The position numbers were made by a program, and so were the translations under genes. Shown in pieces: positions 10,581-19,778 of a stretch of DNA of 29,329 bases. Position 1 is the first letter of the stretch. Every line of letters begins with the position of its first letter. The notes below the pieces were generated by a model. The model was not told where the DNA came from. It was given only the letters and a program-made list of their open reading frames with translations, and searched no databases. Source of the stretch: a virus; the IMG/VR virus record IMGVR_UViG_3300025101_000119, positions 1-29,329 of that record; one strand, written 5' to 3'.

Positions 10581-12017
10581 ATGACTGTTCTATTTAAAAA
10601 CAATGCTCATTCAACATTAGCTTCCAGCATTACGGATTCTGCTACAAGTATTACTCTTGCATCAGGTCATGGAAATGCTAGGTTTCCAGTTACAGCAAGC
10701 CCAAATTATTTTTACGCAACTCTTATAGATGGTTCAAATAACTTAGAAGTTGTAAAATGTACTGCAAGGTCTAGTGATGTCCTTACAGTTGTTAGAGCTC
10801 AAGAAGGTACCTCAGCAAGAGCTTATTCTACAGGTGATAGAATAGAGCTTAGAATTACAGCACAAGGTTTAGAAGATTTAAATGGTACACGAGCTAGTGA
10901 ATATAAATCAGATTGGGGTAGTTCATCAGCCCCTATAACTCATACTGTAACTGTTGGAACTAAAACAGGTGCACATCCGTATACAGGCGTAGGTTCTAGT
11001 AATGCTTATTTTATAGACAACATAGAGTCGCCTGTTCTAGCGTTTGATGGTGCAGATACAGGCAAAACTTATTACTATAGGTTTGACCAAGCTGATGCAA
11101 GTAATGACGGACACCCTTTAAGATTTTATTTAAACGCTGCAAAAAGCACAGCTTATACAACTAATGTAACAACAAATGGTACACCTGGTACTGCTGGTGC
11201 ATACACACAGATTCAAGTAGATGAGTACACTCCAAACCTATTGTACTATCAATGTAGCAGTCATGCTCACATGGGTAATTACATACATCATATTTCTAAT
11301 ATGCATAATAGCAATGGCGTGTTGTTTAAAATGCCAACATCAGATGGTTCTGCTGGACAAATATTAAAAACTGATGGCTCTGGAGTATTAAGTTTTGTAG
11401 CAGCAGCAACAGCTACATACCCAACCGTTACAGGAGTAACTCCTTCAGCTACAGGTAATACTGCGGGTAACCTTGTTATTGCGGGGACAAATTTTGTTGT
11501 AGGGTGTCATGTAGAATTTATAAATTCATCTGGGGTTATAACCCTACCAAACAGTATTGTTAGGGATTCAGCTACACAGCTTACAGTTAATGTAACATTA
11601 GGCACAGATGGCACATATTTTATTAGAGTTGAAAACCCTGATGGTTTAGCAGCTCGTAGCTCATCAGCAATACTTACAGTCTCAGATGCACCTACATGGT
11701 CTACGTCTGCTGGAAGCTTAGGCGAGGTTGCAGCAGGGGCATCAGTATCTTTAGATGTAGATGCCTCATCAGACTCAACAGTAGCGTTTAGCGAAACTAC
11801 AAGTGTGCTAACCAGTAATACTGACACACCTGCAAGTACCATGAATTTAACTCTCAACTCGTCTACAGGTGCAATTACAGGCACAGCTCCTAACGCAACG
11901 AGTGATACAACATATAATTTTACCTTACGAGCAACAGATGCAGAATCGCAAACAGCAGACAGGGCATTTAGTATTACAGTAGCGGTAGGAATTAACAACT
12001 CAGGACAATTTAACTAA
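10581..12017 (+). CDS. Multidomain tail fibre with cupredoxin-like domain
   Basis: This 478-aa protein has four regions. Residues 1-100 form a domain shared with the protein encoded at 14594 (both contain YFYATLID and NNLEVVK). Residues about 115-240 look like a cupredoxin: His178 (NDGHPLRF) and the cluster Cys225, His228, Met231 in YYQCSSHAHMGN sit where type 1 copper ligands are expected. Residues about 280-367 match an IPT/TIG Ig-like domain, and about 370-470 a cadherin- or He_PIG-like Ig domain. It is a likely virion-exposed adhesin. Related cupredoxin-like segments occur in marine phage structural proteins. Copper binding is inferred from motif only. Confidence 0.75.
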   Translation: MTVLFKNNAHSTLASSITDSATSITLASGHGNARFPVTASPNYFYATLIDGSNNLEVVKCTARSSDVLTVVRAQEGTSARAYSTGDRIELRITAQGLEDLNGTRASEYKSDWGSSSAPITHTVTVGTKTGAHPYTGVGSSNAYFIDNIESPVLAFDGADTGKTYYYRFDQADASNDGHPLRFYLNAAKSTAYTTNVTTNGTPGTAGAYTQIQVDEYTPNLLYYQCSSHAHMGNYIHHISNMHNSNGVLFKMPTSDGSAGQILKTDGSGVLSFVAAATATYPTVTGVTPSATGNTAGNLVIAGTNFVVGCHVEFINSSGVITLPNSIVRDSATQLTVNVTLGTDGTYFIRVENPDGLAARSSSAILTVSDAPTWSTSAGSLGEVAAGASVSLDVDASSDSTVAFSETTSVLTSNTDTPASTMNLTLNSSTGAITGTAPNATSDTTYNFTLRATDAESQTADRAFSITVAVGINNSGQFN

Positions 12018-13438
12018 TGGCAAATTCATACTTAACAAAAGATTTTGGTAGTGCGGGGAATAGAAAAACAATGACTTTTAGCTTTTGGGTTAAAAGAAAT
12101 GTTATTGGCTATGGTGGAGATACTCAAGAACTATTTATAGGAGATGCACAATCTTCATATCCATCACACTTTATTGATTTTGATAGTGCTAATAAATTAG
12201 ATATTAGGAGTCAAGATGGGGTAAGTGGTGCAACACTTAGGTTTACATCAGTTAGAGAATTTATAGACACAACGGCTTGGTATCATGTTGTCGTAGCAAT
12301 AGATACAACACAAGCGAGTGCTGGAGATAGGTGTAAAGCATGGGTAAATGGAGAACAAATAACAGCATGGGGTACATCAACTCAGTCAAATGGATTTGGA
12401 CAAAACAGCGATACTAATTTTAACTCAGGTGCAAGTACAGAATATATAGGTAAACATTATAATTTCCATTCTAATTTTAACTTAGCTCATTATCATTTTG
12501 TAGATGGCACAGCTTTAACACCATCAACTTTTGGTGAAACTGATAGCACTACTGGAATATGGAAACCAAAAACTAATCCATCGGTTACTTACGGCACACA
12601 TGGGTTCTTTCTTAAATTTGAAAATGCTGGTGCATTAGGTACTGATTCATCAGGAAACTCCAAAACATGGACAGTTAATGGCAATCTCAAACAATCTATA
12701 TCAACACCTAATAATAAATTTCCAAACTTAAACCCAAGAGGTACACATACCGATTATGATACTCCAGTTTATAATCTTAATGCTGGAACTACTGCTTTAA
12801 TGACAACAGGTGTAAACAGAGTACAACCTATAGATATGTGTTTTCAAGGTGGTAAATGGTATTGGGAGTGTAAGATTGAAAAAGCAAATAACTCATCAAC
12901 ACTTGGTGTATATATGACTGACTTCTCATCTCCAAAAAGAATAGAACAATTTAATGCTGACTTAGCTTTACAATCTGCTGCTAATGGTGGTAAACGAGCA
13001 GTTAGTTTTTTAGCAGATGCTAGTTCATCTAAAATTCAAAATGCTGGTAGCACAGTAACTTATGGTGCTAACTGTAGTGATGGAGATATTATTATGTTCG
13101 CCTTTGATTCAGCTACAGGCAAGGTATGGACAGGTAGAAATGGAACTTGGAACAATGCACCTGGAACATCTAATGTTGGTAATCCAGCAGCTGGTACTTA
13201 TGATAGTGGTACAGTATTAACAAACACAGATAATGATTTAATGTCATTTTATATTAGTGGTCGTTCATCAGATTCAACAAACAGATATATGTATATAAAT
13301 TTTGGACATGGCTACTTTGGAACTACAGCAGTCGCATCAGCAAATGCAGATGGTAATGGTAAAGGCTCGTTTGAGTATGCACCACCTAGTGGATTCTTAG
13401 CTTTATGTAGCTCAAACATTCAATCAGACGGAGGATAA
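12017..13438 (+). CDS. LamG + SPRY-like tail fibre (receptor binding)
   Basis: This 473-aa protein starts inside the preceding stop codon. Residues about 18-200 resemble a LamG/concanavalin-type lectin (TFSFWVKRN; WYHVVVAIDTT; CKAWVNGEQIT). Residues about 265-470 resemble a SPRY/B30.2 fold (GGKWYWECKIE; DIIMFAFDSATGKVWTGRNG). Both folds bind sugars or proteins, so recognition of the host surface is likely. In related phages I recall this pair fused to the domain encoded by the next gene, whereas here a stop, GGAGG and a new ATG separate them. No enzyme motif is visible. Confidence 0.75.
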   Translation: MANSYLTKDFGSAGNRKTMTFSFWVKRNVIGYGGDTQELFIGDAQSSYPSHFIDFDSANKLDIRSQDGVSGATLRFTSVREFIDTTAWYHVVVAIDTTQASAGDRCKAWVNGEQITAWGTSTQSNGFGQNSDTNFNSGASTEYIGKHYNFHSNFNLAHYHFVDGTALTPSTFGETDSTTGIWKPKTNPSVTYGTHGFFLKFENAGALGTDSSGNSKTWTVNGNLKQSISTPNNKFPNLNPRGTHTDYDTPVYNLNAGTTALMTTGVNRVQPIDMCFQGGKWYWECKIEKANNSSTLGVYMTDFSSPKRIEQFNADLALQSAANGGKRAVSFLADASSSKIQNAGSTVTYGANCSDGDIIMFAFDSATGKVWTGRNGTWNNAPGTSNVGNPAAGTYDSGTVLTNTDNDLMSFYISGRSSDSTNRYMYINFGHGYFGTTAVASANADGNGKGSFEYAPPSGFLALCSSNIQSDGG

Positions 13439-13439
13439 T

Positions 13440-14585
13440 ATGGCAACATTTACAAAAATAGCAAAACCATCAGCACACCATGACGAAGTATTATATGCGG
13501 GTAGTGATAGTAACCAAACCATTACTGGTTTAGGTTTTCAACCTGATTGGTTACACATAAAAAACAGAGTAGAGAATGGAGACGGATATCATAATGTTTG
13601 TGATACTGTTAGAGGTCTTAGCAACAATTCATTCTTCAATAGAACAGATGGAACAAATAGTAATAGCAGAGTAACTGCGGTTACTTCAGATGGATTTACT
13701 TTAGCTGGAGATTTAAAATACACTAATAATGCAGACGCTGGATTTATTGCACATTGTTTTAAACTAGCTGGTTCAACAACTACCAATGACGCTAGTGCTA
13801 CAGGCGTTGGCACAATAGATTCAAGTTATCGTGCAAACCAAGACTCAGGTATATCAGTAGTTACTTGGACAGGCACAGGTGCAAATGGCACTATAGCTCA
13901 TGGGTTAGGCAAAGCACCTGACTGTATAATAATGAAAGATATACAACAAGATGGTTACCATTGGGAAATGTATGCACATTCAGGTAATGCTGGTGGTAGC
14001 CCTGAAAACTCAGCATCATCAGATGAAACCCATCACATTAGATTTTTTGATAACTCTTTTGCTGACCCTGATGATGACCATACTTATTTTAATGACACCA
14101 AACCTACTAGCACAGTATTTTCTATAGGTACTGCTAACAATGTAAATCAAAGTGGCATATCACAAATGGCAATTTGTATTGCAAATACTAATGGCTCAGT
14201 ACGAGCTGGGGCATATCAAGGTAATGGTAAAACACATGGCTCATTTATCTTTACAGGTTTTAGACCAAGAGCAATATGGACTTCAGGAAGATTAGCCGAA
14301 GACCCTCATTGGAAAACAGTTACAACTAGATTTACTAGTAATACAAATGCAGCAGCATCAAGTGGTGGGGCTAATCATGGTAATCCAATAGAGCATAACT
14401 TAAAGTTTGGAGATGAATCATCATTAAATGAACAACAACAATGTAATGTTGATATCTTTAGTAATGGATTTTCACCAGCCTCAACAGATGGTAAACACAA
14501 TGGTGGCGGATATTATTATTACTACATAGCATGGGCGGGTGCACCTATGGTTGGAACAAACAAAGTATTAGGAACAGCATTTTAG
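13440..14585 (+). CDS. DUF7483-like tail fibre protein
   Basis: This 381-aa protein contains internally repeated units: GLGFQPDWLHIKNR, GLGKAPDCIIMKDI and TGFRPRAIWTSGR mark three copies of a beta-rich module of roughly 120 residues. The C-terminal YYYYYIAWAGAPMV motif is characteristic of marine phage fibre proteins often annotated DUF7483 (family number from memory). It starts 2 bases after the LamG/SPRY gene with its own GGAGG 5 bases upstream, so it is independently translated. The two genes probably make parts of one appendage. Confidence 0.75.
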   Translation: MATFTKIAKPSAHHDEVLYAGSDSNQTITGLGFQPDWLHIKNRVENGDGYHNVCDTVRGLSNNSFFNRTDGTNSNSRVTAVTSDGFTLAGDLKYTNNADAGFIAHCFKLAGSTTTNDASATGVGTIDSSYRANQDSGISVVTWTGTGANGTIAHGLGKAPDCIIMKDIQQDGYHWEMYAHSGNAGGSPENSASSDETHHIRFFDNSFADPDDDHTYFNDTKPTSTVFSIGTANNVNQSGISQMAICIANTNGSVRAGAYQGNGKTHGSFIFTGFRPRAIWTSGRLAEDPHWKTVTTRFTSNTNAAASSGGANHGNPIEHNLKFGDESSLNEQQQCNVDIFSNGFSPASTDGKHNGGGYYYYYIAWAGAPMVGTNKVLGTAF

Positions 14586-15364: not shown

Positions 15365-15521
15365 AAAAACACCATTACTTATGTACCCAGATGGGACTTT
15401 TGCTAGAAGCAATGCTATTGTTAAAGGGTGTGTAGTTGTAAAAGAAGCACATGATACTGTTGAGATAGGAGAAATTATAAATCAAACTGAGGCAGTAAAA
15501 AAAGCAGAAAACAATGAATAA
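15351..15521 (+). CDS. Short protein (56 aa), unknown
   Basis: This short frame overlaps the fibre gene before it by 14 bases and the coiled-coil gene after it by 8 bases, a pattern typical of compact phage operons. The protein has a basic start (PSYKKTPLLMYPDGTF) and a Val-rich middle (AIVKGCVVVKEAHDTVEIG), with an acidic and Gln-containing end. There is no signal peptide or motif I recognise. The GGAGG at 15311-15315 is too far upstream to serve, so translation is probably coupled to the preceding gene. Without this gene about 150 bases would be empty, which supports it. Confidence 0.6.
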   Translation: MPSYKKTPLLMYPDGTFARSNAIVKGCVVVKEAHDTVEIGEIINQTEAVKKAENNE

Positions 15522-15738
15522 CAAAGATATACAAACAGAAATAGAATTACTAAAAAAAGACATTGATTTAATTAAAAACAATCATCTTGTTCATATGCAA
15601 AAGGATATTGATGTTCTTAAATGTGATGTCAGAGATGTCAAAAGAGCAATATTTAAAGCCCAATATGTTATGTATGGAGCTATTGTAGTCTTTGTTTTGA
15701 TGAGTGATAAATTTACAGAAATACTTAAACTTTTATAG
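15514..15738 (+). CDS. Coiled-coil protein with C-terminal TM (XhlA-like)
   Basis: At 74 aa, residues 1-45 are a heptad-like coiled coil (TEIELLKKDIDLIKNN; MQKDIDVLKCDVRDVKRAI). Residues about 50-66 (YVMYGAIVVFVLM) form a membrane segment, with a short C-terminal tail. This architecture resembles haemolysin XhlA-type phage proteins, which associate with holins at the inner membrane. It could equally be a spanin component or a virion membrane protein. It starts 8 bases inside the previous gene. Confidence 0.65.
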   Translation: MNNKDIQTEIELLKKDIDLIKNNHLVHMQKDIDVLKCDVRDVKRAIFKAQYVMYGAIVVFVLMSDKFTEILKLL

Positions 15739-15748
15739 GAGAAACATT

Positions 15749-15913
15749 ATGCCAATGGGAAAAGGAACATATGGAAACAAAGTAGGTAGACCAAAAAAAC
15801 TGAAGTTCGGTACGGGCGGAAAAGTCAAAAAGAACAAAAAAGGAAAGTTCATGTACGGTATGGGCGGTAAAGTAATTAGCTCTACAAGAATGAAAAAAGG
15901 TAGTTGCAAATAA
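15749..15913 (+). CDS. Small basic Gly/Lys-rich protein
   Basis: At 54 aa, extremely basic and glycine-rich (KFGTGGKVKKNKKGKFMYGMGGKV), with no acidic residues. AGGAGA (15737-15742) precedes the ATG at 15749 by 6 bases, so I prefer this start over the longer upstream frame. The two near-repeats (FGTGGKVKKNKKGKF and YGMGGKVISSTRMKKG) suggest a duplicated nucleic-acid-contacting element. The stop overlaps the start of another small basic gene. It may bind DNA or be packaged in the virion, inferred from charge. Confidence 0.65.
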   Translation: MPMGKGTYGNKVGRPKKLKFGTGGKVKKNKKGKFMYGMGGKVISSTRMKKGSCK

Positions 15914-16083
15914 TGGCTGCAGGTACTAAACATTATTTTAGAGATGGTAGAGAGTTTAAAGGTGCTGTGCATAAAATGCCTAATGGTCAAATCCATACAG
16001 GTAAAACGCACACTGCATCGTCTAAACGAGTCTTTCATTTTAAAGATTTATCTGCCAAATCTAAAAAAGTAGCGAGAGGATAA
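15913..16083 (+). CDS. Small basic protein (56 aa), unknown
   Basis: It starts in the stop codon of the previous gene and ends in the start codon of the next (one-base overlap at each end), strong evidence that it is a real cistron in a coupled operon. The protein is His/Lys/Arg-rich (KHYFRDGREFKGAVHKMP; HTGKTHTASSKRV) with no signal or membrane segment. The repeated G-x-x-H/T-x-GK pattern is reminiscent of small phage proteins of unknown function. Binding to DNA or virion components is inferred from charge. Confidence 0.65.
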   Translation: MAAGTKHYFRDGREFKGAVHKMPNGQIHTGKTHTASSKRVFHFKDLSAKSKKVARG

Positions 16084-16334
16084 TGGTAGCTAAAAAATAT
16101 CAAAGTAAAACTGGAGGGCTTAACGCAGCAGGTAGAGCTCACTTTAAACGTAAAGAGGGAGCTAACCTCAAACCTCCAGTAACTGGTAAAGCACCTAAAG
16201 GTTCTAAAGCGGCAGGTAGGCGAGCCAGCTTTTGTGCTAGAATGAGTGGTGTAAAAGGACCGATGAAAGACAGCAAGGGCAGACCAACTAGAAAAGCATT
16301 GGCGTTAAGAAAATGGAAATGTCGAAAAAAATAA
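16083..16334 (+). CDS. DUF6321-like small basic protein
   Basis: This 83-aa, Lys/Arg/Ala-rich protein has the signature SKTGGLNAAGRAHFKRKEG, then RRASFCARMSGVKGPMKDSKGRPTRKALALRKWKC. I recognise this as a family widespread in marine phages and usually annotated DUF6321. Two Cys (in SFCARM and WKC) may form a pair. Its function is not established; the high charge and conserved Cys suggest a DNA- or virion-associated factor. It overlaps the next gene by 22 bases in another frame. Confidence 0.8.
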   Translation: MVAKKYQSKTGGLNAAGRAHFKRKEGANLKPPVTGKAPKGSKAAGRRASFCARMSGVKGPMKDSKGRPTRKALALRKWKCRKK

Positions 16335-16918
16335 AACAGTGCTGTTATATAATGCTAGTCATTATAGCATTGTTGAGTATTGAGAACGCTATATCAGACG
16401 TTACTAGTTCAGGCAGCACTACCAATACGCAGAGTAATAACGCTGGGTCAAACACAGCAATAACGGGTGGATACGAATCTTCAACAACTTATCAATCAGG
16501 TAGTAGTTCAAACACAACTACCAATAACGAAACGAATAACTCTACAAATCAAAAGACTGCTGTAAACAGTGCTAATTCGCCTGGTATGAGCGTTTATGGG
16601 CAAGACAGCTGTGTAATACCTTTGGCAGCTGGAGTGACCGTAATAGGCTTCTCAGGCTCTTTTGGAAGCTATTACACAGACCCAAATTGTGAAAGACGTA
16701 AATCGGTAGCTGTATTAGCTAAACTTGGCATGAAGGTTGCAGCAATATCACTTATGTGTCAAGACGTTCATGTGTGGCAAGCCATGATGGATGCGGGCAC
16801 GCCATGCCCAGTCGATGGCCTCATTGGAGAATCTGCAAAGAAAAGGTGGATGGAAAAGCGTAAACAAGAATTAACAGGAGCTACTCAAACTAAACCGAGT
16901 ATGACGTGGAATGATTAG
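16313..16918 (+). CDS. Exported four-Cys protein, unknown
   Basis: At 201 aa, the N-terminus carries a signal peptide or membrane anchor (CYIMLVIIALLSIENAIS, possible cleavage after Ser28). Residues 30-90 are Ser/Thr/Asn/Gly-rich and probably disordered. The C-terminal domain has four Cys (100, 126, 149, 165) and a conserved-looking core, CERRKSVAVLAKLGMKVAAI and VWQAMMDAGTPCP. I have seen this core in marine phage proteins placed near the lysis/tail region, without known function. An envelope or periplasm location is likely. ATG at 16319 is an alternative start. It overlaps the 40-aa lipoprotein gene by 8 bases. Confidence 0.7.
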   Translation: MEMSKKIKQCCYIMLVIIALLSIENAISDVTSSGSTTNTQSNNAGSNTAITGGYESSTTYQSGSSSNTTTNNETNNSTNQKTAVNSANSPGMSVYGQDSCVIPLAAGVTVIGFSGSFGSYYTDPNCERRKSVAVLAKLGMKVAAISLMCQDVHVWQAMMDAGTPCPVDGLIGESAKKRWMEKRKQELTGATQTKPSMTWND

Positions 16919-17033
16919 AGCAATACTACTATCTTTAATAATAACTGGTTGTGCTACACACTCAGTTACTTTAGGACCAATGACAGTTTATGGGAGCAAT
17001 GAGCAAGAAATATACTTGCCTGAAAGACAATGA
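16911..17033 (+). CDS. Tiny lipoprotein, candidate outer-membrane spanin
   Basis: Only 40 aa: a hydrophobic signal (RAILLSLIIT) ends at a clear lipobox IITGC with Cys14 as the lipidated residue. This leaves a 27-residue mature peptide with no long coiled coil. It is nested between two exported-protein genes with overlaps of 8 bases upstream and 4 bases downstream (ATGA). Phage o-spanins (Rz1-like) are small lipoproteins, but this one is shorter than most and lacks the usual Pro-rich stretch. It could also be an entry-exclusion or surface lipoprotein. Confidence 0.6.
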   Translation: MIRAILLSLIITGCATHSVTLGPMTVYGSNEQEIYLPERQ

Positions 17034-18730
17034 AATATTTAATACCTTTATTTTTTCCATTGATAGTTTTAGCAGACAGTCAAACAACTGGTAATTTAAT
17101 TACTAATGGTAATTTTAATAATGGAACTACTGGGTGGACACTATCAGGTGACTCACAACGTATTGGTGATTGTTGCCCAGGTGGACACGATTTAGAGTTT
17201 GGAGATAGTGGGAGTATAGAACAATCTTTTAATCTACTTTCTAATACTATTACACAACCTATGCTTAATAATGGCATTACACTTAACTCATCTGTTGAAG
17301 TACAGAATGGAGAGTGTGGAGTATCAGGATGTTGGGGGGGCTCAGGACCAGCTGATACCTTTACAATTAGGTTGCAGATTAAGGATATAAATGACAACGT
17401 GTTGTCAGTAACAACACAGGAGCGTACTAATGTTACGGGAATTAATGGAGAAGATTTTACAGATAGTGTTTCGTTCACTGGGACAGGGTCTAATCAAGGA
17501 GATATATTTATTAGCGGTAGTGATGGGAATAGTCCTGCTAATCTTGGTGGTCCTAATGTGGATAATATTTCTGTAACTATGACCTATGATGATACTGTAT
17601 TATCAGCTACAGAGTCAGCAATCATAGCCACAGCATTTGAAGAGATTGAAGAGGTGTTGTCTACAGAAATAGAAACTGTAGAGTTTATACCTATAGAAGA
17701 ATTTGTCTTTGAAGTTTTTGAAGAACCAGAGATAACATTTGAAATGATTGAAGAAATAACATTTGAAGAGATAGCTGTAGAAGAAATTAACACAGGTATT
17801 GTAGAAATATTTACTGTAGCTATCGAAGAAGAAATTATACCCATGGAGGTAACATATGAAGAACCAAAGGCCATCGAGACATTCACAACAGAAATCCAAG
17901 GCTTTGAAGAAAGAACTGAAACAAACGAAGTTGTCCAAGAGTTCTTTGCGGAAGCAGGGGAGGCCATCATCGAAGCCCCTAACTCTAGCGGAGTCGTTGA
18001 GCGAGAAGCTCCACTTGAAGAAGTTCGAGGAGGAGAGACAACAGAAGCTTCAGGAGAAACAATTAGCGGAACAGGAAATGGAGGAACACCAACAGAAAAC
18101 GAGGAAAGAGTTTCTGCAGAGCCTAGAGAAGAAAGCACAGTCGCAGAGTCTACACCTGAAACTAGTGAGGTATCTAGCGAGTCTGAAACAGTTTCTAATA
18201 GTAGTAGTACAGAAAATACAACTGTTGCTGAAGAAGAAGTAACCGATGAAACTAACGGAGAAACAGAAACAGCTGAAAGTGAACAAGGAAGTGGAGGAAC
18301 TGAAACAGTTGCTCAAGGAGAAAATACCGAAAGCAGTAATGCTGAGGTGGAAGAAAGCAGGGATAGTGAAAGTTCTCGAACAGTTGATACAACGATTTCA
18401 GTAGAAAATATAGAGCGTACAGTTAATAAAACTATACAAAGAATAGACCAGAGATTAGTTACTACTTCTCTTATTGTAGCAAAAGCTATGGAAAGTCCAC
18501 TTTCTATGGACAATTATGGTCAAACCAATAATAATATATTTAGAAACCAGCCATTTATTAGTGGAGGAGAGTATTATGAAGAAAGAGAATATGTTGATAC
18601 TAGAAATATATATGTTGAAAATCAGAACAACTATGGTGATATTGTGGCAAACTATCAAGAACAAATTCAACAGGCTACTGATGAAGTTATAAGAGCAGAA
18701 GAACATCTAAGGAGGATACGTGGATATTAA
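17030..18730 (+). CDS. Large secreted acidic protein with CBM-like domain
   Basis: At 566 aa, a signal peptide (KYLIPLFFPLIVLA, cleavage near Ala15) is followed by a jelly-roll-like domain at about 20-187 (NLITNGNFNNGTTGWTLSGD, typical of carbohydrate-binding or DUF642-like modules) with four Cys (48, 49, 96, 101). Residues about 200-440 are extremely Glu/Thr/Ser-rich and probably disordered. The C-terminus has a short helical region (455-495) and a final helix (NYQEQIQQATDEVIRAEEHL). Export from the host or insertion in the envelope is expected. GC content and C-ending codons rise at about 17880-18110. A long overlapping frame lies inside. Function unknown. Confidence 0.75.
   Translation: MKYLIPLFFPLIVLADSQTTGNLITNGNFNNGTTGWTLSGDSQRIGDCCPGGHDLEFGDSGSIEQSFNLLSNTITQPMLNNGITLNSSVEVQNGECGVSGCWGGSGPADTFTIRLQIKDINDNVLSVTTQERTNVTGINGEDFTDSVSFTGTGSNQGDIFISGSDGNSPANLGGPNVDNISVTMTYDDTVLSATESAIIATAFEEIEEVLSTEIETVEFIPIEEFVFEVFEEPEITFEMIEEITFEEIAVEEINTGIVEIFTVAIEEEIIPMEVTYEEPKAIETFTTEIQGFEERTETNEVVQEFFAEAGEAIIEAPNSSGVVEREAPLEEVRGGETTEASGETISGTGNGGTPTENEERVSAEPREESTVAESTPETSEVSSESETVSNSSSTENTTVAEEEVTDETNGETETAESEQGSGGTETVAQGENTESSNAEVEESRDSESSRTVDTTISVENIERTVNKTIQRIDQRLVTTSLIVAKAMESPLSMDNYGQTNNNIFRNQPFISGGEYYEEREYVDTRNIYVENQNNYGDIVANYQEQIQQATDEVIRAEEHLRRIRGY
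17856..18242 (+). CDS. Possible overlapping basic coiled-coil ORF
   Basis: A 128-codon frame lies wholly inside the acidic secreted protein gene, shifted by +1. It has a strong ribosome-binding site, GGAGG (17844-17848), 7 bases before the ATG. The product would be Lys/Glu/Gln-rich and very basic. The +1 frame of a Glu-codon-rich gene naturally lacks stops and reads as Lys/Arg, so this may be an artefact. The unusual C-ending codons of the host gene in this stretch keep the question open. Confidence 0.2.
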   Translation: MKNQRPSRHSQQKSKALKKELKQTKLSKSSLRKQGRPSSKPLTLAESLSEKLHLKKFEEERQQKLQEKQLAEQEMEEHQQKTRKEFLQSLEKKAQSQSLHLKLVRYLASLKQFLIVVVQKIQLLLKKK

Positions 18731-18953
18731 AACAATAGCGACTGGCATAGGCTTGGTGATTACGATAGCTGGGCTGTTCGTCTACCAGGGCCAATTAATT
18801 ACAAGAATTGATGTGCTTGAAGCACAGAAAGCACCAAACATAAAACCATTAGAACAGGACATAGCAATCAATAAAGCAGAGATTGCTGTGTTGAAAGCAA
18901 AAATAGACGAAATAAAATCAAGGTCTGACAACCCGTTGGGAGGTGGTTTATGA
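18720..18953 (+). CDS. TM + coiled-coil protein, candidate inner-membrane spanin
   Basis: At 77 aa from a GTG at 18720, GGAGG (18711-18715) lies 4 bases upstream and decides the start. Residues about 5-22 (TIATGIGLVITIAGLFVY) are one membrane segment, followed by a coiled coil at about 28-68 (IDVLEAQKAPNIKPLEQDIA; AEIAVLKAKIDEIKS). This N-terminal TM plus periplasmic coil matches inner-membrane spanin (Rz-like) architecture, though it is short. It could pair with the lipoprotein encoded at 16911. It overlaps the holin-like gene by 4 bases. Confidence 0.65.
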   Translation: MDIKTIATGIGLVITIAGLFVYQGQLITRIDVLEAQKAPNIKPLEQDIAINKAEIAVLKAKIDEIKSRSDNPLGGGL

Positions 18954-19387
18954 TGGGAATACCAATGGAGCTACTCAGCATGCTAGCTAGCACAGTGCTA
19001 GGCGGAATAATGTCTATTCAAGCCCAGAAAGGACAAGCTCAAGCAGAGCGAGAGAAGATGTTAATGCAACGTGCAGAGTTTGCAGCAAAACAAACAGATA
19101 AAGCTAGACAAGTATCTGACCCACACACCAAGCACACAAGGCGTTGGATAGCTTTAATGTGCGTATTCTCTATTATCGTAGTACCTATCGTGGCTCCAAT
19201 CTTTACAGATGTAAACATTGCATACCAGATAATGACGCAAGCAGATTCAGGATGGTGGATATTTGGAGAGACTTACGAAACCTCATACTTTGAAGAAGGT
19301 AATACAATTTATATAACTAACTTACAATCTCATACAATTTTTTCAATTATCGGGTTATATTTTGGAGGAAGTTTAACACGTAAGTAA
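18950..19387 (+). CDS. Holin-like three-TM protein
   Basis: At 145 aa, hydrophobic segments lie near residues 7-23, 66-86 and 126-142. Between the first two is a Gln/Ala/Lys-rich amphipathic stretch (AQKGQAQAEREKMLMQRAEF) and a conserved-looking KHTRRWIALM. The layout resembles GTA-type three-TM holins found in marine phages. A holin would form the inner-membrane lesion that starts lysis. It starts in the stop of the spanin-like gene with GGGAGG (18938-18943) 6 bases upstream. Segment positions are estimated by eye. Confidence 0.65.
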   Translation: MMGIPMELLSMLASTVLGGIMSIQAQKGQAQAEREKMLMQRAEFAAKQTDKARQVSDPHTKHTRRWIALMCVFSIIVVPIVAPIFTDVNIAYQIMTQADSGWWIFGETYETSYFEEGNTIYITNLQSHTIFSIIGLYFGGSLTRK

Positions 19388-19408
19388 TTGATTTTTAAGG
19401 AGAATATT

Positions 19409-19555
19409 ATGGCAAAATTATGTGCAAAAGGAAAAGCAGCAGCTAAACGTAAATTTAAAAAGTATCCATCAGCATATGCTAATATGTATGCATCGGGTGT
19501 ATGTTCGGGCAGAATAAAACCTGGAGGTAAAAAGCGTGGCAAAAAAAGGGCTTAG
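19409..19555 (+). CDS. Small basic two-Cys protein (48 aa)
   Basis: It is Lys/Ala-rich (KLCAKGKAAAKRKFKKYPSA) with a compact core YPSAYANMYASGVCSG and a basic Gly tail. This core is familiar from tiny proteins of marine phages whose function is unknown. Two Cys (5 and 32) could pair. AAGGAGA lies 6 bases before the ATG. The 3' end overlaps the next basic gene by 20 bases, suggesting coupled translation. DNA or virion association is inferred from charge. Confidence 0.75.
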   Translation: MAKLCAKGKAAAKRKFKKYPSAYANMYASGVCSGRIKPGGKKRGKKRA

Positions 19556-19778
19556 ACAATGGGTTAAAGATAAATGGGTTGATATTGCTAACCCACGTTC
19601 TGACGGTTCGTTTCCACCATGTGGTAGGTCAAAGGGTGAAAAAAGAGGTAAGTATCCTAAGTGTGTACCGTTAGCAAAGGCAAGAAGTATGTCAGCTGGT
19701 AGAAAACGTGCTGCAGTCAAACGTAAACAATCTAAAGACAATACATCAAAGGGTAAACCAGGGTACGCAAAAACATAA
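19536..19778 (+). CDS. Small basic protein, DUF5872-like
   Basis: At 80 aa from a GTG at 19536 with GGAGG (19523-19527) 8 bases upstream. The segment LRQWVKDKWVDIANPRSDGS followed by FPPCGRSKGEKRGKYPKCVPLAKA is a recognisable pattern in small viral proteins, often annotated DUF5872 (name from memory, moderately sure). Two Cys (29, 43) sit in a C-G-R...Y-P-K-C arrangement that might bind a metal with other residues or form a disulfide. The tail is Lys/Arg-rich. The stop overlaps the nozzle start by 1 base. Confidence 0.7.
   Translation: MAKKGLRQWVKDKWVDIANPRSDGSFPPCGRSKGEKRGKYPKCVPLAKARSMSAGRKRAAVKRKQSKDNTSKGKPGYAKT

Follow-up and report, generated by a model that had tools for sequence, protein, structure and literature searches.

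The described systems closest to the locus studied here are the two-component spanins of Gram-negative phages (Rz/Rz1), which likewise form an envelope-targeted set beside holin and endolysin genes; the i-spanin has an N-terminal transmembrane (TM) segment and a periplasmic coiled coil, while the o-spanin is a tiny lipoprotein. Further points of comparison are the beta-sandwiches of the carbohydrate-binding modules CBM_4_9, CBM16 and CBM61 and of the Fbs1 sugar-recognition domain, and a set of marine-phage genes annotated as 'putative carbohydrate binding domain containing protein' (AP013540 S28C10, HTVC033P gp45). The latter are known by annotation, and a role in host recognition has been assumed for them (PMC3909814). 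In the literature searched on S28C10/HTVC033P-type proteins there is no report of a signal peptide or of a lysis-module context. SAR11 bacteria, like their phages, rank among the most abundant marine organisms, and how SAR11 phages open the outer membrane is not settled in the literature we found; the main texts of papers on pelagiphage spanins, holins and proteomics do not describe the gene set reported here.

The stretch of DNA analysed, which we refer to as the window, is 29,329 nt long and contains recognisable terminase, head-tail adaptor, major head and tail genes. Because homologues of its protein C occur in named phages, we regard the window as part of a podovirus-like relative of pelagiphages, and judging from these relatives its host would be a SAR11 bacterium. 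The features of the locus are as follows.

15514..15738, plus strand: small protein with a C-terminal TM segment; a possible member of the cassette, with weak homologues at similar positions
16313..16918, plus strand: protein A, predicted to be secreted or N-anchored; a Ser/Thr/Asn-rich part precedes a 4-Cys domain; lies upstream of C as its conserved partner
16911..17033, plus strand: protein B, small lipoprotein of 40 aa with lipobox LIITG-C; optional; o-spanin-like in size and position
17030..18730, plus strand: protein C, 566 aa, ATG start; signal peptide, beta-sandwich, acidic linker and helical tail
17030..17074, plus strand: predicted signal peptide of C (aa 1-15); -3/-1/+1 pattern kept in 51 non-redundant relatives
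17075..17590, plus strand: glycan-recognition-type beta-sandwich of C (aa ~16-187), from the AlphaFold2 model, fold matches and Cys pattern
17594..18397, plus strand: acidic, Glu/Ser/Thr-rich, disordered linker of C, from composition and a pLDDT of ~30
18398..18727, plus strand: helical C-terminal tail of C (aa ~457-566), from AlphaFold2 helices
18720..18953, plus strand: protein D, N-terminal TM segment and coiled coil, ending in NPL; overlaps the end of C; i-spanin-like topology
18950..19387, plus strand: protein E, 145 aa with three hydrophobic segments; holin candidate

Set against the Rz/Rz1 pair, D shares with the i-spanin the predicted topology of an N-terminal TM segment and a periplasmic coiled coil, and B is, like the o-spanin, a tiny lipoprotein, but it is optional here and absent from most other groups. 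Protein A has no counterpart in the Rz/Rz1 system, and C differs from it as a large, soluble, apparently Sec-secreted protein in which a glycan-binding-type domain is joined to a long acidic linker; having neither a lipobox nor a TM segment, C is by definition not a spanin. With the CBMs and Fbs1 it shares the beta-sandwich (C residues 17-188, Z 13-19) at about 13-16% identity, and it differs from them in carrying no attached enzyme. The S28C10 and HTVC033P proteins are true homologues of C, with the same architecture and the same neighbours.

The open reading frame at 17030-18730 (plus strand) is present in the window exactly as the original prediction gave it. It is not a chance frame, since a single IMG/VR scan returned 175 relatives of the N-terminal domain (80 kept), and the complete copies among them have the same architecture and an intact frame. 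The protein begins with a predicted AXA-type cleavable signal peptide, with no lipobox Cys and with no TM segment in the mature part; with cleavage placed between A15 and D16, the N-terminus reads MKYLIPLFFPLIVLA followed by DS. In all 51 non-redundant relatives the residue at -1 is A, S or G (A in 46), position -3 takes one of V, L, A, S, T and G, and D, E or Q stands at +1; the hydrophobic stretch varies in sequence, while the cleavage pattern stays. From this residue pattern the N-terminus looks like a Sec-type substrate of signal peptidase I, which bears out the signal peptide claimed at the outset and supports the predicted export of C from the cytoplasm.

The four-Cys domain that had been proposed to follow the signal peptide is modelled by AlphaFold2 (from a 49-sequence alignment) as a confident all-beta sandwich over residues ~16-187, with a pLDDT mostly of 80-96 and lower values in two loops. 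Among 53 non-redundant sequences, Cys48-Cys49 is invariant, and Cys96 and Cys101 go missing as a pair in 12, the behaviour expected of a disulfide in an exported protein. In structure comparisons Fbs1/Fbs2 come first, through their glycan-recognition domains (Z 18.7, 13% identity; rmsd 2.8 over 165 residues), followed by CBM61 (Z 14.1) and CBM16 (Z 13.2), and capsule-depolymerase tail domains are also among the matches; Foldseek pairs the domain with a carbohydrate-binding beta-sandwich at E 4.6e-8. At the level of sequence, 25 of 49 relatives match Pfam CBM_4_9 (best E=1.5e-4), C of the window itself has no Pfam match at E<=1, CBM_4_9 included, and searching solved structures by sequence returned nothing meaningful for C or A. 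The modelled domain is thus closest to glycan-recognition folds, which agrees with the carbohydrate-binding-type domain originally proposed, with the qualification that fold likeness alone does not establish sugar binding.

The acidic stretch that follows is real but longer than the 240 residues first estimated, running from aa 189 to 456 (~268 residues, of which 72 are Glu). It is 51% E+S+T, has a net charge of -67 and no Cys, and has a pLDDT of ~30 in the model, which places disorder at aa ~210-456. The helical C-terminus, also foreseen, appears in the model as two helices (aa 458-505 and 538-564, pLDDT ~50-86). What did not hold is the view that this is an unusual combination, at least among these phages: the protein forms a family that is widespread in pelagiphages and keeps a fixed set of neighbouring genes.

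Named phages with homologues of C are Votkovvirus S28C10 (Autographiviridae) and the Pelagibacter phages Baldr, HTVC202P and HTVC033P, and we conclude that C belongs to a large, essentially undescribed family of pelagiphages (SAR11 phages). Protein A as query leads to further phages, namely HTVC023P, HTVC115P and the myovirus Mosig, in which A is followed by a C equivalent, whose N-terminal domain is unlike that of the window or has strongly diverged from it and which has an acidic linker and a tail, and then by a D-type protein. That the alternative N-terminal domains of the Mosig, HTVC023P and HTVC115P types share a fold with that of the window is only a guess. In HTVC115P, the annotated start of gp53 (L089 5470-6870) appears too late, as the near-identical locus L151 has an in-frame upstream signal peptide; gp53 as a query against viral contigs found 498 relatives in one scan, more than the window type. 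No relative of C was found in GTDB contigs. An A-like protein (53% identity over 112 residues) lies at the end of a 3.8-kb contig of a Saccharimonadia MAG (L093), probably a phage contig binned with the MAG. One record of 54.8 kb (L028, G008) has two complete E-A-C-D sets with different C tails, the second at G008:C1:10000-22000 (L231), which may reflect a duplication, a hybrid or a chimeric assembly.

The gene order A-(B)-C-D is kept in four groups of C, that of the window (N1) and the Mosig, HTVC023P and HTVC115P (H115) types. A D protein ending in NPL lies directly downstream of C at 63/64, 16/16, 27/29 and 60/74 loci of these groups, in the same order, and the same ending is found in 2 of 2037 control ORFs of the same size. 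The signature of A is present upstream of C at 54/71, 12/12, 34/34 and 55/72 loci of the four groups. The loci behind these counts are related and not independent events, so that we regard the spread of A-C-D over pelagiphage podo-, sipho- and myoviruses as the stronger point; found in three morphotypes, the set is not tied to one tail type. A scan for promoters and terminators found no more than in shuffled sequence.

The lipobox is present in all 37 homologues of B that were found, and a lipoprotein-like ORF lies near C at 21 of 47 loci of the window's group versus none of 56 in the H115 group; among the H115 and Mosig-type loci tested there was no lipoprotein. NPL is the C-terminal end of all 70 D homologues found. 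D matches a PHROG family of Rz-like spanins weakly (E=0.025), and its matches to spanin families are weak throughout. D differs in length between the two types of C tail: it has 75-81 residues beside the common tail (one exception, 61), 63-75 beside the other, and 107-113 in three cultured-phage outliers; judged from sequence, this pairing fits a contact between the two proteins and also simple linkage. At one locus (L072), an ORF starting MDINKKYNLIVIDPPW is inserted between C and D; by its DPPW motif we take it to be MT-A70-like.

Protein E is called a holin mainly by position and topology, since nothing in the window matches PF11351 (GTA_holin_3TM) at E<=5 and protein E shows no more than a weak likeness (E=0.002) to a holin-like protein; its position is that of the PF11351 holins in Mosig and in the locus L175. 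The gene set has several short and very basic peptides on either side (window 15704-16334 and 19388-19778), one of which, at 16083-16334, matches DUF6321 (E=2e-27), and their homologues accompany E and A in many loci.

Several annotations of neighbouring genes deserve a comment. CRP-207 gp73 (L091 3292-3873) and CRP-810 gp51 (L090 6168-6590) are annotated as lysozymes and look like D-type TM/coiled-coil proteins with the NPL end; in Pfam, gp73 of CRP-207 has no lysozyme match. CRP-810 gp53, annotated as an 'OmpA family protein', is an A-type protein by sequence similarity, and we rejected the OmpA reading. A Manatee Spring protein among the neighbours is labelled 'tonB'.

Genes of host lysis are found around the set in several phages. 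In L175 the order is C, D, a small TM protein, a lysozyme (PF00959, 1e-9) and a 3TM holin (PF11351, 1.5e-8); in HTVC023P and in L118 an M15 peptidase follows D; in HTVC033P an Amidase_2 gene and a small membrane protein lie upstream of A; and in Mosig a PF11351 holin is immediately upstream of A-C-D. Within 4 kb of C, an endolysin was recognised at 9 of 12 HTVC023P-type loci, where M15, amidase and lysozyme enzymes are all represented, and at 15 of 32 H115 loci, against a chance level that we estimate at about 20% (a stretch of ~9.5 kb in a genome of 40-60 kb). In the window's own group, none of 34 loci has a recognised endolysin at this distance, and all 34 have E or another holin-like match within it. 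The record of the window, a 29-kb fragment, has no Amidase_2, and in S28C10 and HTVC202P the recognised endolysin is far from C. The classical Rz family (PF03245) gave no match above the cut-off in 19 records, which is weak evidence. By gene content, the set lies in holin/endolysin cassettes, the endolysin part of this statement coming from outside the window's own group.

Based on this, we suggest that C is the periplasmic, probably glycan-binding part of a spanin-like lysis module of SAR11 phages that disrupts the outer membrane, a reading to which we assign a probability of about 50%. The export signals on A, B and C would place these proteins in the envelope; D fits the inner-membrane part and B, where present, the lipoprotein, and as the exported C is long enough for the periplasm, we propose it as the link between a glycan and D. 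Late in infection, C would be exported to the periplasm, where its beta-domain would bind an envelope glycan (peptidoglycan, LPS or another surface polysaccharide), its acidic linker would span the periplasm, and its helical tail would engage the coiled coil of the inner-membrane protein D. After the action of holin and endolysin, the A-C-D assembly, with B where present, would help to disrupt or detach the outer membrane, and so do the job of a spanin complex through another architecture. The suggestion in the original prediction that the protein acts on the host envelope fits this neighbourhood. We further speculate, with a good deal of reserve, that in many SAR11 phages a secreted glycan-binding C on an acidic spring, together with D and A, takes the place of the lipoprotein o-spanin, and that its glycan-binding domains can be swapped to suit the envelope of the host.

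If A-C-D is indeed responsible for the outer-membrane step, these phages would have built a spanin-like solution around a glycan-binding protein. The set is conserved across phage types and found in hundreds of contigs, where it is annotated as hypothetical; it would then serve as a marker for the lysis cassettes of SAR11 phages, and the assumption that these carbohydrate-binding genes encode virion host-recognition proteins would have to be corrected.

Three other functions have been considered for C. It could bind glycans in the periplasm or at the surface and change the envelope of the infected cell, so that superinfecting phages are excluded. This would make use of the predicted export and of the glycan-binding type of domain, it would suit the variable N-terminal domains on a common C chassis, and A does weakly match a PHROG labelled superinfection exclusion (phrog_4980, E=4e-4, mostly in the Ser/Thr-rich part). 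However, superinfection-exclusion genes are usually solitary and lineage-specific, whereas A-C-D is a set of several genes that phages of different morphotypes have kept, next to genes for holins and endolysins, and it has no match to a defence model; we therefore consider this function unlikely.

Less probable still is that C acts as a lectin that is freed at lysis and spares the progeny, by covering receptor glycans on debris or on sister cells or by binding to released virions. A secreted, acidic, soluble protein with a glycan-binding-type domain would suit this purpose, and the location among lysis genes would fit as well, but the conserved helical tail of C would be left without explanation, as would D, an inner-membrane coiled-coil protein that almost always directly follows C. 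For the blocking of re-adsorption and the coating of virions, both raised by the original prediction, we found nothing that favours either over the role in the envelope and lysis.

Equally doubtful is a role of C in the virion, as a receptor-binding or decoration protein. The count of such carbohydrate-binding-domain genes in hypervariable islands (PMC3909814) speaks for it, as do the beta fold of the domain, common in tail fibres and receptor-binding proteins, and the place of the set in the window, between tail-fibre and tail-tube genes. A Sec signal peptide is, however, hard to reconcile with virion assembly in the cytoplasm, and podo-, sipho- and myoviruses share this set although their tails are unrelated. 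Within the window's group the domain of C is moreover the conserved part, with a median pairwise identity of 77% compared to 69% for A and 59% for D, although the value for C is partly a matter of ascertainment, as these loci were picked by similarity of this very domain. Tail genes beside A-C-D are conserved only within the window-like group. Since the set spans morphotypes, travels with holin-like genes and, in several groups, adjoins endolysins of different classes, a tail or capsid role of C is unlikely; the fold alone would allow it, but the export signal and the occurrence of the set in phages with different kinds of tail led us to set this role aside, in line with the earlier view that C is not a typical structural protein. 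A function in defence or counter-defence was dropped, as PADLOC gave no match.

In the fibre region of the window, the proteins at 12017-13438 and 13440-14585 show a weak SPRY match (E=0.008) and a match to DUF7483 (4e-54), respectively, and both align to different parts of the same long PHROG family of virion structural proteins.
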